Shown here: positions 2,265 to 8,068 of the stretch, one piece after another
Layout of the letters: each line of letters begins with the position of its first letter
Numbering within the stretch: position 1 is the first letter of the stretch
Origin: Leptolyngbya sp. 'hensonii'
GTDB taxonomy: Bacteria; Cyanobacteriota; Cyanobacteriia; GCF-001939115
Assembly: GCF_001939115.1 (NCBI RefSeq)
Contig: NZ_MQTZ01000048.1
Coordinates: 62,138-126,137, forward strand
Direction: 5' to 3'
DNA length: 64,000 bases
Notes under the pieces: model-generated
Database searches by the model: none
Told to the model about the DNA's origin: nothing
Seen by the model: the letters and a program-made list of their open reading frames with translations, nothing else
Program-made: the position numbers and the translations under genes

Positions 2265-2828
2265 ATGTACGGCTTAGTCAACAAAGCGATCGAAGATATG
2301 GTCTGCAGCCACTTTGGTGAGGAAACCTGGCAAACCATTAAACAAAAAGCAGAGCTGGAAATTGATGCCTTTATCAGCATGGAAGGCTACCCTGACGATG
2401 TCACCCACAAATTGGTCAAAGCCGCCAGTGAAGTCCTGGGCTTATCAGCCTCAGAAATCATGCAGGCTTTTGGGGAATATTGGGTGACCTACACCGCCAG
2501 TGAAGGCTATGGTGAAATGATGGAGATGAGTGGGGACAATCTACCGGAATTTCTGGAAAATCTGGACAACCTGCATGCCCGTGTGGGTGTCATTTTTCCG
2601 CAACTGCAGCCCCCTTCTTTTGACTGCAGTGAGCAGACGGAAGAATCTCTCCATCTCCACTACTATTCCAGCCGCGAGGGTTTAGCCCCGATGGTTGTGG
2701 GGTTGGTAAAAGGACTGGGAACTCGATTTGATACTGAAGTCGATGTCACCCAGACCCAAAGTCGGGAGACGGGTGCTGACCATGATGAATTTCAGATCAA
2801 CTACAAAGCCAAAACGGATGAATCATGA
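2265..2828 (+). CDS. H-NOX heme nitric-oxide-binding sensor
   Basis: Soluble heme sensor of gaseous ligands, 187 aa, the usual length for a stand-alone H-NOX. Visible signatures: [12 protein letters not shown] at the N-terminus, EYWVTY with the distal-pocket Trp, the proximal heme ligand His104 in LDNLHARVG, and the heme-propionate YxSxR motif at Y133-S135-R137. The position where O2-binding H-NOX proteins carry a distal Tyr (near residue 140) is Leu, which in this family goes with NO selectivity over O2. A strong AAGGAGGA site (2253-2260) sets the start. Its stop overlaps the start of the HNOBA kinase (ATGATGA context), so the two are translationally coupled, as expected for a sensor and partner kinase. 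The family call is firm; ligand choice is inferred from the pocket. Confidence 0.97.
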
Positions 2829-4279
2829 TGACGCCCCACCTGAGTCTTTCCCCCTCTCTATTTGCCCGTGCCTTTCCCTTTCACTTTATATTTAATCGGG
2901 AGGGGGAAGTCATTCAGGCTGGAGAGGTGATGCAGCGCATCACCCTAGATGGATTAATTGGCAGTCAAGTTGAACAGTACTTTCAAATTATTCGCCCTAA
3001 AGTCGAGTTCGACTTTGAGGCCATACACAAGCAATCTCGCTCTCTTTTTCTGCTGGAATCCCTCCACAATGGGATGCAACTCAAAGGGCAAATGATGCTC
3101 CTGGAAGATCAGGAGGTCATGTGTTTTCTGGGGTCTCCCTGGGTGACGGATACGGCTAGCCTGGGACCTCTGGGGCTAAAGTTGAAGGATTTTGCCATTC
3201 ATGACCCGATCGTGGACTTCCTGTTTCTCCTGCAGGCCAAAAATACGGCCCTCATGGACACCAAAAAGTTGACCGATGAACTGACCCAGCAACAGGCCCA
3301 GTTACGGAGTGCCTTGCAAATTAAGGAAAGTCTGGCAGAAATTGCTGAAGCGCAGGCCAAAAAGCTGAAAAAGGCCCTGCATGAGTTGCAGAATACCCAG
3401 ACCCAATTAATTCAAACAGAGAAGATGTCGGGCCTCGGGCAACTCGTCGCCGGGATTGCCCACGAAATTAACAATCCCATTAATTTTATCTACGGTAATA
3501 TCCAGCATGCCAATGAATATATCCAGGATTTAATCGGGCTTTTGCAACTCTATCAACAGTCCTATCCAGAGCCCAGATCAGACATTCAAGCCCGAACCGA
3601 GGAAATAGATATTACGTTTCTGCTGGAGGATCTGCCCCAACTCCTGAATTCCATGAAAGTGGGGACCGATCGCATCCGTCAGATTGTCCTGTCACTGCGC
3701 AACTTTTCCCGGCTGGACGAGGCGGAAATGAAGGCTGTGGATATTCATGAAGGTATTGATAGCACCTTACTGATTTTGCAAAGCCGATTAAAAGCCAGGG
3801 GAGACTGTCCAGCAGTCAAAGTGATCAAAAATTATGGCAATTTGCCCCTGGTGGAGTGTTATGCCGGACAACTGAATCAGGTGTTTATGAATCTGCTGAG
3901 CAATGCGATCGATGCGTTGGAGGCTCCCCAACCTCATCATTCCCGATCAGGAACGAGCTGTCATACCAGCACCATCACCATTACCACAGAAGTCGATGAC
4001 TGTGATCAGGCCGTCATTCGGATTGGGGATAATGGACCCGGCATGACCGAGGCCGTGAGAGCCCGATTGTTTGATCCATTTTTCACCACCAAGCCCGTCG
4101 GTAAAGGCACGGGCCTGGGCCTATCCATCAGCTATCAGATTGTTGTTGAGAAGCATCAGGGAACGCTCCATTGTATTTCTGAACCCGGTATGGGAGCTGA
4201 GTTCCGGATTGAGATTCCCCTGCGGCGGTTCACCGATCGTGAGACTGTGCATCAGGCCAGGGCCTATTCCATTTCCTGA
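2825..4279 (+). CDS. HNOBA-domain sensor histidine kinase
   Basis: Histidine kinase of 484 aa, expected partner of the H-NOX sensor. The N-terminal 1-140 region has the features of the heme-NO-binding-associated (HNOBA) PAS-like domain, with the typical FPFHFIFN start and a conserved [11 protein letters not shown] end. A coiled coil follows at 140-200. The kinase core has the phospho-acceptor H213 in GIAHEINNP, an N box around N360 ([11 protein letters not shown]), a G1 box at DNGPGM (402-407) and a G2 box at GKGTGLGLS. There are no membrane segments, so it acts in the cytosol. It overlaps the H-NOX gene by four bases. No receiver domain or response regulator follows directly; the preceding GGDEF-EAL protein has no receiver domain either, so its phospho-target is unknown. 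Confidence 0.94.
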
Positions 4280-5319: not shown

Positions 5320-6852
5320 ATGGTCAGTCAATCTGTGATTAATGTTGATCTCGCTGATGTATTTGAACAGCCCGATCGCAAGGGTTTTCTTCATACTCTC
5401 GCCTGGGGAGATTATGTTGAGGTGCTGGAAACCACTGATACCTATCTGCGGATCAGCACCGTGAAGTATGAGGAGACAAGCAACGGCAGTATTCTGCCTG
5501 TTAAAACTGAAGCCTATATTTGCCCTACCAAGTCCTCTAACCTGTCGCCTGCTGATATTGCCATTCCCCAAGCAGACAGTAAAGTTCTCAAGGTCAATTT
5601 TGTCGATGTGCAACAGGGCGATGGCGCGGTGATTGAGTCACCAGACGGGAAGATCATTCTGGTAGATGGTGGCGATAACCAGCTCTTCGCCCGCTATCTG
5701 GCCGCCCGGTTTCGGGGGACAAGCCTAACAAATCCCAAATCGATCGACTGCATTCTCGTCACCCACGGTGATGCAGACCATTTCGATGGGCTGACCCAAA
5801 TTCATGCATCGGAAACCAATCCTGAGCCGAGAAAACGGCTCTTTATTGAGCCCAAACGGGTCTATCACAACGGTTTGGTGAAGCGTCCGAGCAAGGACAA
5901 ACACAACAAAACCATCCCTGAAAAAGAACTGCTGGGGCCGACCCAAGTTGTGGATGGCGAAACAATCCTCACGGGACTGGTAGAGAGTTTGCTGGATGTG
6001 CCGAATGAGGAAATGAACCAGCCCTTTCGCCAGTGGAAGGAAGCCCTGAAAAAATGGAATGACCGGAGCAACATTGAGTTTCGCAGGCTCTCCTTTGGGG
6101 AGAAGGATGCCTTCGATTTCTTCAACAATGGTGACCTGGAGATCTCTGTTCTGGGGCCGTTCGTGACCGAAAAGGGATCAGTGAGGGGACTCAAATTCCT
6201 AGGCAATCCTCCTAAAGGACCCCGAATCGGGCACGAGTCCATGAGTTTGGGGGAAGCCGACTTCAAAGGCTTTTCAGCCTCCCACACCATCAATGGTCAT
6301 TCCATTGTCTTCCGACTTCGATATGGTGGGTTTAGCTATCTATTCTGCGGCGATCTGAATGATGAAGCCAGCCGTATCCTGGGCCGCAAGCATCAGAAGG
6401 GCGAAATTAATCTCCGGTCTGAGGTCTTCAAGGTGCCACACCATGGCTCAGCAGATTTTTCTGGGGCTTTCTTTCAGATGGTTTCCCCCATTGTGAGTGT
6501 GATTTCCAGTGGCGATGAATCGGCGAAGCAAGAGTATATCCATCCCCGTGCCACCCTGGTTGGTGCCCTCGGACGACATTCCCGAGTTGATGAGCCCCTC
6601 ATCTTTGTCACCGAGCTCGTGGCCTTCTTCAACCTTGAAGGTTGGGCAAGTTTAACGGATCAGAAAAAGGCCGAAAAGAGAGGGGAGTTTTTCGCGTTCA
6701 GCCGGAGGGCCTACGGCATCGTGAAGACCCGCACAGATGGCACTCGCCTGCTGGTCTACACCGACAGTGGCAAGACCAACATGAAGGAAGCCTATTGCTA
6801 CTCATTAGACCAGAACGGCTTGCCAGTGCCCGCACCCCTGGTGAGGGCATAA
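5320..6852 (+). CDS. ComEC-like metallo-beta-lactamase-fold hydrolase with N-terminal SH3-like domain
   Basis: Predicted cytosolic metal-dependent hydrolase of 510 aa with no signal peptide or membrane segment. Residues 1-75 look like a bacterial SH3-type beta domain. Residues 88-395 form the metallo-beta-lactamase fold: VDGGDN, the metal motif THGDADHFDG (H149, D151, D153, H154; the HxDxDH form typical of ComEC and not the HxHxDH of class B lactamases), YLFCGD with D345, and KVPHHGSADFS with H374/H375. An unusual insert of about 160 residues sits between the metal motif and the late Asp. The ComEC-type catalytic domain is regarded as a nuclease in competence; substrate here is unknown. It is followed after 66 bases by the DUF2278-lamin-tail gene on the same strand, suggesting a two-gene operon. 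Confidence 0.87.
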   Translation: MVSQSVINVDLADVFEQPDRKGFLHTLAWGDYVEVLETTDTYLRISTVKYEETSNGSILPVKTEAYICPTKSSNLSPADIAIPQADSKVLKVNFVDVQQGDGAVIESPDGKIILVDGGDNQLFARYLAARFRGTSLTNPKSIDCILVTHGDADHFDGLTQIHASETNPEPRKRLFIEPKRVYHNGLVKRPSKDKHNKTIPEKELLGPTQVVDGETILTGLVESLLDVPNEEMNQPFRQWKEALKKWNDRSNIEFRRLSFGEKDAFDFFNNGDLEISVLGPFVTEKGSVRGLKFLGNPPKGPRIGHESMSLGEADFKGFSASHTINGHSIVFRLRYGGFSYLFCGDLNDEASRILGRKHQKGEINLRSEVFKVPHHGSADFSGAFFQMVSPIVSVISSGDESAKQEYIHPRATLVGALGRHSRVDEPLIFVTELVAFFNLEGWASLTDQKKAEKRGEFFAFSRRAYGIVKTRTDGTRLLVYTDSGKTNMKEAYCYSLDQNGLPVPAPLVRA

Positions 6853-6918
6853 GGACCTGCAAGCAGCCCACCGCATCGATCGCCTCATCCACAATCAATT
6901 TTTACAATGGAGTGACCC

Positions 6919-7974
6919 ATGAAGAACTACGGTGTTTTGAAAGGAATAGCTGTCAAATACGAGCGAGATGACGACAAAGATCCTCACTCAGAGCTGCTCA
7001 TGAACGTTAAGGGCGTGAGTTATCGGATCGCCATTAATGTGCGATCGAGTCGGGGTCCAGTCCACCAGCGGTTGGTCGAGTATTTGATTATGCACGACAT
7101 CAAGCATCCGATCGTCGATCGGGCGCGAGAATTACCTGAAGGGTGGAACGATCTGGAAGATGGGATCAAGGATGGGGCTGCGATCGACTACATTCGCAGT
7201 AACATTTTCCGGGCAACGGACATGAAACCAATTACCCATTTCGCACCGGGTCCAAACAACGATCTATTCGAACACGTAGAAGATCTGTTGCAGCGTGCTA
7301 TTCACGAGGATGGTGCAGTGGTGTATGCATTTGGTGAACGCTGGGGGCCTGAACAAAATAAGCAGGATGCTTACTTCGGCTTTCTGCCGGGCAATGGGGT
7401 CCACTTGATTCACATGAACCAGGGGGGAACTGGGGAAAATCATGGGACTTTCCATGACGGGGCACTGATCATCGATTTCCCGAAATCGGGCACGGCTTCA
7501 GCCCTGTTTCTGAAGTTCCAGAACCAGATCTGGCACACGGATGAGGGAACTGCGACCCCCATTGTCCATGCTCCAACTGTACCTGTTGTCCCGATTCCAG
7601 GCAGTGGCACGATCGAGCCCTGGCCTGTGGTGGCCTCGGATTCGCCCTACCATCTGGCTCGCATCATTGCTGCCATGGTCAATCCTCGTTCCGAGGATCC
7701 GGGTCGCGAGTTCGTGACGATTCTCAACATCGCAGACCAGGCGTTAGACCTAACTGGCTGGCAGATTCTCGATAAACAGGACAAGGCGGACACTCTCTCC
7801 GGTTCGCTTCAGCCCGGTGAAGCGGCTATTTTCCGGCTCAGCGGCAAGGGGGCACAACTGTCGAACAAGGGCGGCACCATCACCCTATTGGACTCCCGAG
7901 GACTCAAGGTAGATGGGGTAGCCTATACCAAGGATGAGGCAAAGGCTGAGGGTAAACCAATTGTTTTCTCGTGA
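6919..7974 (+). CDS. DUF2278 (YukJ-like) protein with C-terminal lamin-tail domain
   Basis: Protein of 351 aa in two parts. Residues 1-215 match DUF2278/YukJ: the start MKNYGVLKG, then YRIAINVRSS, an FRATDMKPI segment, AVVYAFGERWGPE and GNGVHLIHMNQG. After a Pro/Val-rich linker (about 220-240), residues 245-351 form a lamin-tail-like Ig fold (LARIIAAMVNPRSED, FVTILNIADQALDLTGWQIL, LQPGEAAIFRLSGKG). No signal peptide is seen. Function unknown. Bacterial lamin-tail domains are often linked to metallo-hydrolase and nuclease proteins, and here the gene directly follows such a hydrolase, so a joint role on DNA is a reasonable inference only. Confidence 0.87.
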   Translation: MKNYGVLKGIAVKYERDDDKDPHSELLMNVKGVSYRIAINVRSSRGPVHQRLVEYLIMHDIKHPIVDRARELPEGWNDLEDGIKDGAAIDYIRSNIFRATDMKPITHFAPGPNNDLFEHVEDLLQRAIHEDGAVVYAFGERWGPEQNKQDAYFGFLPGNGVHLIHMNQGGTGENHGTFHDGALIIDFPKSGTASALFLKFQNQIWHTDEGTATPIVHAPTVPVVPIPGSGTIEPWPVVASDSPYHLARIIAAMVNPRSEDPGREFVTILNIADQALDLTGWQILDKQDKADTLSGSLQPGEAAIFRLSGKGAQLSNKGGTITLLDSRGLKVDGVAYTKDEAKAEGKPIVFS

Positions 7975-7980
7975 GCCAAA

Positions 7981-8068
7981 TTAAGGATCACGAATTAAAT
8001 AAGATGAATAATTAGGGTTTGGGGGCTTCGCCCCCAAACCCCTACTTTATTTAGGTTTCGATCCTAAC
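7981..8068. repeat. MITE-like inverted-repeat element / bidirectional terminator
   Basis: An 88-base element between convergent genes. Ends are imperfect inverted repeats (TTAAGGATC at 7981-7989 against GATCCTAAC at 8060-8068, with A/T-rich arms inside). The centre is a perfect 11-bp stem, GGGTTTGGGGG (8015-8025) with CCCCCAAACCC (8031-8041), and a 5-base loop. It overlaps the last codons of the ABC-2 permease gene. Its ends resemble those of the element at 29192-29335. It could act as a terminator for both genes. Confidence 0.65.

Follow-up and report, generated by a model that had tools for sequence, protein, structure and literature searches.

Two adjacent genes in a 64,000-nucleotide stretch of the genome of the cyanobacterium Leptolyngbya sp. 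'hensonii' (the window) raise the question whether a metallo-beta-lactamase (MBL) hydrolase and a DUF2278 protein ending in a lamin tail domain (LTD) act together, and if so, in what process. An earlier note had proposed that this split pair is one two-gene functional unit, with a candidate role in DNA processing, defence or repair. Both open reading frames lie on the forward strand, the hydrolase gene (510 aa) at 5320–6852 and the DUF2278-LTD gene (351 aa) at 6919–7974. The 66-nt gap between them (6853–6918, forward strand) carries a Shine-Dalgarno-like GGAG at 6909–6912, and a terminator scan predicted no terminator within it. The strong predicted terminator is found 3' of the DUF2278-LTD gene, as a hairpin at 8015–8041 that is terminator-like on both strands and lies between convergent genes. 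We infer from this sequence layout that the two genes are co-transcribed. The surrounding genes have housekeeping functions, no protease is present among the examined neighbours, and the locus lies outside any defence island; a role in defence is thus unsupported at this site. Further upstream, at 2265–4279, the gene of a haem-NO-binding protein comes first and overlaps by 4 nt that of an HNOBA-histidine kinase, which is likely a NO-sensing two-component input.

The hydrolase matched the Lactamase_B profile above the Pfam cut-off (4e-8), and an AlphaFold2 (AF2) model built from a 22-sequence alignment reached a pLDDT of 89.4 and a pTM of 0.91. The model comprises an SH3-like beta barrel with six strands (aa 4–67) in the N-terminal region (aa 1–70; 5320–5529, +), an MBL core and a C-terminal beta subdomain. 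The core (aa 88–435; 5581–6624, +), delimited by alignment to ComEC, conservation and the model, contains the metal-ligand motif HGDADH (HxDxDH type, aa 149–154; 5764–5781, +) and a ComEC-type PHHGS motif (aa 373–377; 6436–6450, +). Residues H149, D151, D153, H154, D345, H374, H375 and G376 are invariant in 22 homologues. The description of an HxDxDH-type MBL protein with an SH3-like N-domain was therefore accurate, and the barrel also gave a weak structural match to the bacterial SH3 domain 2krs (E 0.095). Weak matches of the hydrolase to DRHyd-ASK and Peptidase_M10 were judged to be due to chance.

The large insert that had been noted is likewise present, at ∼aa 165–320 of the core; in the alignment, aa 161–322 stand opposite ∼66 ComEC residues. 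The insert amounts to roughly 95 residues. It is mostly ordered in the model, where low confidence is limited to aa 301–310 and 401–410, two short loops that adjoin active-site motifs in the sequence. The first of these blocks (pLDDT 52) belongs to a loop at aa 296–315 (6205–6264, +) just before an INGHS motif, which is kept in the close hydrolase clade and missing from distant homologues, and which is a possible gating loop.

Comparison with solved structures using Foldseek placed the MBL nuclease domain of ComEC/Rec2 first (PDB 9ic4; E 1e-15, TM 0.78 on the target), six orders of magnitude in E-value ahead of the second match, the phosphorylcholine esterase Pce; yeast PDE1 was also found. 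ComEC/Rec2 (TIGR00361) is the best match by both sequence and structure, with the same fold and the same HxDxDH and PHHGS motifs, and this ranking suggests that the hydrolase belongs with the ComEC nucleases and not with lactamases that act on small molecules. It differs from true ComEC, as previously remarked, in having no transmembrane channel, with a score of 49.6 bits against a cut-off of 190, and in carrying its own SH3-like N-domain and C-terminal beta subdomain as well as the mostly ordered insert. Neither protein of the pair has a signal peptide or membrane segment, the highest 19-residue hydropathy means being 1.41 for the hydrolase and 0.98 for the DUF2278-LTD protein. The hydrolase is probably cytoplasmic, and probably a soluble metal-dependent DNA-cutting enzyme, with DNA deduced as its substrate from family and fold.

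Soluble ComEC-like MBL proteins are known from several defence systems. HamM of Hachiman is a DNA-specific pro-nuclease that is unlocked by a trypsin-like protease, Avs1a of AVAST is cleaved and activated likewise, activation in Canu, whose MBL is CanC, is by a caspase, and the MBLs of Lamassu and DRT have been grouped with the Hachiman/AVAST DNases or gated nucleases (PMC12799240). The best PADLOC matches of the hydrolase were three such proteins, LmuA, RTasMBL and Avs1a; membership in a known defence family was rejected, with scores below the curated cut-offs (60.8 bits against 420 for the Avs1a model). Like Avs1a, HamM, LmuA, DRT RTasMBL and CanC, the hydrolase is a soluble ComEC-like MBL encoded as a separate gene in a small operon, but it lacks an adjacent trypsin or caspase, carries an extra SH3-like domain and has DUF2278-LTD as its partner. 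HamM-type gating is not readily transferred to it, because the main insert is ordered, in contrast to the two disordered gates of HamM, only two short low-confidence loops are present and there is no neighbouring protease. A phage or prophage origin was also rejected: a phage collection contained no relative of DUF2278 and, for the hydrolase, no more than a short ComEC-like match, and scans of viral contigs gave one weak hydrolase match and one contig with an LTD-less DUF2278.

The second protein is a clear member of the DUF2278/YukJ family and, as had been recognised, ends in a lamin tail domain. Its DUF2278 domain (PF10042; aa 2–210; 6922–7548, +) scored 190 bits against a gathering score of 25 (E 5.4e-56), with D90, R93, H162, H165, Q168, D180 and Q203 conserved in alignments. 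The LTD (PF00932; aa 250–337; 7666–7929, +) scored 41.9 bits against 34.3 (E 1.5e-10) and belongs to a subfamily found in other bacterial LTD proteins. DUF2278 also occurs without an LTD. It contains no recognised protease motif, no solved structure is convincingly similar to it by sequence, and the AF2 model, made from a three-sequence alignment, was poor (pLDDT 55). In the collection of papers searched, none names DUF2278 or describes a function for it, and none of the titles retrieved for YukJ and DUF3616 concerned the function of these families.

An LTD linked to a nuclease-type hydrolase has precedents in bacterial fusion proteins (MBL, synaptojanin/EEP and calcineurin fusions, ExeM, and the PADLOC candidate C3a212, SNase+LTD), which are largely secreted or membrane-associated (PMC6085458). 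In the window, unlike in these fusions, the LTD and the hydrolase are on separate chains and the LTD is fused to DUF2278.

If the two genes formed a dedicated system, they would be expected to travel together. When 84,980 species genomes were scanned for the hydrolase, 80 loci were returned; ∼31 of them carry a member of its SH3-like family, most of the others being ComEC and other MBLs. Two further SH3-like records came from plasmids. DUF2278 matches occurred in just three of the 35 genomes or records that carry the hydrolase, leaving 32 without one. The genomes with the four closest orthologues (50–65% identity; Hyphomonadaceae, Variovorax, Abditibacterium and Myxococcota) all lack DUF2278. 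Conversely, a hydrolase of the window type was present in one of the 25 other DUF2278-LTD loci, and most sampled LTD-bearing members of the DUF2278 family, unlike that of the window, have no MBL beside them. The hydrolase is missing from six of the seven sampled cyanobacterial DUF2278-LTD loci (all except the window), and among 339 cyanobacterial genomes it was found (E below 1e-20) only in this one, DUF2278 being found in nine. Because neither the closest orthologues nor the other six cyanobacterial loci are paired, a dedicated two-gene system is not supported, and the earlier proposal of a single functional unit fails in this form. Some hydrolases of the family have other hydrolases as neighbours: a calcineurin-like phosphoesterase gene lies a few nt 3' of the orthologue in a Myxococcota MAG (L025:8001-10568), and at L032:6681-10068 further MBL-fold proteins are encoded on either side in the same direction.

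Among the hydrolase loci, adjacency to DUF2278-LTD outside the window recurs only in Dyadobacter flavalbus (Bacteroidota, L039), with DUF2278-LTD directly upstream of a hydrolase of the same family, so that the gene order is reversed. Each of the two hydrolases belongs to a different half of the family tree (midpoint-rooted, with a long-branch warning), both halves having 100/100 support, and the pairing must therefore either have arisen twice or be ancient and mostly lost. DUF2278 is found in ∼1.4% of sampled genomes, and the number of chance adjacencies expected over the 34 other hydrolase loci is ∼2e-4, a rough figure that assumes ∼5,000 genes per genome and ignores the clustering of genes on islands and plasmids. 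The window pair is not a chance juxtaposition.

A survey of 26 DUF2278-LTD loci, a small and plasmid-rich sample in which neighbours on unannotated records were called by a mechanical choice of open reading frames, uncovered a wider set of recurring neighbours: a PLD-like family, DUF3616, S1/P1 nuclease, trypsin-like proteins and a second MBL family (MBL-B). Tandem arrangements of DUF2278(-LTD) with MBL, PLD or S1/P1 genes recur in several phyla, and tight tandems with nuclease-type hydrolases are repeated in Alpha- and Betaproteobacteria, Bacteroidota and Cyanobacteria. The order in Mesorhizobium AR10 is a metalloprotease-like protein, MBL-B, DUF2278-LTD and DUF3616, with an S1/P1 nuclease further on, and Paraburkholderia caribensis has a five-gene run of DUF2278-LTD, DUF3616, PLD, subtilase-metalloprotease and MBL-B. 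PLD genes are found near DUF2278-LTD on the same strand at four loci (L013, L017, L130 and L138), and an LTD-less DUF2278 lies beside PLD in a cyanobacterium (L124) and in Undibacterium, which indicates that the link is to DUF2278 itself. DUF3616 adjoins DUF2278-LTD at three loci, and on R. leguminosarum pSK02 a hydrolase of the window type is flanked by DUF3616 and an S1/P1 nuclease. Both DUF3616 (3 of 142, ∼2%) and the PLD family (2 of 190) are rare in Alphaproteobacteria, so that chance is an unlikely source of these recurrent neighbourhoods. Many plasmids also carry the PLD family, for example in Sinorhizobium meliloti, with no DUF2278 among the matches listed there. Thus a fixed pair finds no support, while the idea behind the earlier proposal survives in a wider sense, in that the adjacency recurs in Dyadobacter and DUF2278(-LTD) is encoded beside other hydrolases of nuclease or phosphodiesterase type. 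Around most DUF2278-LTD genes of cyanobacteria, gammaproteobacteria and actinobacteria no such neighbour is present, and the proteobacterial examples are mostly on large plasmids with transposases nearby.

MBL-B (∼500 aa, LmuA-like) is encoded directly 3' of a ∼630-aa protein in all seven loci examined (L015:4316-7892, L141, L142, L143, L144, L145 and L146). The upstream protein has no informative Pfam match and an invariant HE[TV]TH motif, by which it is probably a metalloprotease of the HExxH type and not a subtilisin-like enzyme; a subtilase is fused to it in a single species (Paraburkholderia). The two may constitute a pair of nuclease and protease that involves another class of protease. 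The MBL-B pair of R. leguminosarum 248 is located between CBASS and Hachiman-like genes.

Several plasmid loci showed additional features. At L133:8969-11017 one protein combines a trypsin-like peptidase with a DNA/RNA non-specific endonuclease (Endonuclease_NS), and its gene lies beside an S1/P1 nuclease and a frame-broken DUF2278-LTD. The DUF2278-LTD genes at L137:7061-8019 and L133:6950-8044, on rhizobial plasmids, are split over two frames and are apparently decayed copies; the PLSDB resistance table lists a stretch of the former as AAC(3)-IIIb, which is clearly an error. A Sinorhizobium plasmid (L020:487-10375) encodes a caspase-family protein, a non-DUF2278 LTD protein, an Avs1a/LmuA-like MBL and a patatin, and its LTD is of the same subfamily as that of DUF2278-LTD. 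A Nostoc plasmid protein (L019:4074-5357) resembles this Sinorhizobium LTD protein in its N-terminus and LTD, with no MBL annotated nearby.

The reading that we tentatively favour is that the locus encodes a soluble ComEC-like metal-dependent nuclease and a DUF2278-LTD accessory, the nuclease being one of several nuclease-type hydrolases that are combined in modular fashion, which points to a system that has yet to be described. The fact that the closest hydrolase orthologues lack DUF2278, together with the many DUF2278-LTD genes without such neighbours, the housekeeping surroundings of the pair and the second rank of a small-molecule phosphodiesterase, Pce, among the fold matches, counts against it. 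A rival reading is that the two genes are functionally independent, separately acquired and neighbours by accident, with the wider set of neighbours explained as accessory hydrolases piling up on plasmids and islands. Both families are sporadic and mostly apart, and the association of the proteobacterial examples with large plasmids and transposases points the same way, but the recurrence in Dyadobacter, the repeated tight tandems in several phyla and the rare DUF3616 as a neighbour common to both families speak against independence, and we consider it unlikely, if a serious contender. That the hydrolase instead cleaves a small phosphodiester or a lipid headgroup, as Pce and cyclic nucleotide phosphodiesterases do, with DUF2278-LTD as a membrane or envelope adaptor, is more doubtful still. 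Pce and PDE1 among the fold matches are consistent with such a substrate, as is the membrane-targeting role proposed for LTDs (Mans et al. 2004, as cited in PMC6085458); against it stand the lead of ComEC by sequence and structure, the two ComEC-type motifs and the absence of a signal peptide or membrane segment.

The likeness to proteolytically activated nucleases bears on two further readings. The hydrolase could, like HamM, Avs1a and CanC, be a pro-nuclease whose loops keep it inactive until cleavage activates it, with DUF2278 or an unlinked protease performing or triggering the cut. The position of the two low-confidence loops next to active-site motifs, the similarity to LmuA and Avs1a, and the constant place of the related MBL-B behind a predicted metalloprotease are in keeping with this, but the window pair has no adjacent protease, its large insert is ordered where the gates of HamM are disordered (PMC12799240), and DUF2278 has no recognised protease motif, which makes such gating quite improbable. 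In a bolder version, to which we give little credence, DUF2278 would be a hitherto unrecognised regulator or processing enzyme controlling several unrelated nucleases (ComEC-like MBLs, PLD-like and S1/P1) in trans, with the LTD for docking. The loci would then make up a new, modular system against invaders, with DUF2278 as the activator, as trypsin and caspase proteases do in Hachiman, AVAST and Canu.

In the reading that we favour, the hydrolase would be a soluble, probably cytoplasmic nuclease of the ComEC-MBL type with its SH3-like N-domain serving in binding, and DUF2278-LTD would be its co-transcribed accessory, from a family encoded beside interchangeable hydrolases of nuclease or phosphodiesterase type (ComEC-like MBLs, PLD-like, S1/P1). 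The accessory would most likely position, process or restrain the hydrolase, with the LTD giving the docking or targeting that in other bacteria comes from an LTD fused to the hydrolase in one chain. The domains, the fold, the conserved metal ligands, the tandem arrangement and the recurrence of the set of neighbours are observed; the substrate of the nuclease, a physical interaction of the two proteins, the direction of regulation and an anti-invader rather than a housekeeping role are inferred. A part in conflict or defence is suggested by the relatives of the hydrolase and by the place of the MBL-B pair, with CBASS genes on one side and Hachiman-like genes on the other. Several bacterial immune systems have lately been found to share soluble ComEC-like nucleases as killing modules. 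A subfamily with DUF2278-LTD in place of a protease as its partner, in a set of loci where DUF2278 recurs next to unrelated nucleases, would, if true, provide the first functional handle on DUF2278, and it would give bacterial lamin tail domains a testable role as trans-acting partners of hydrolases.
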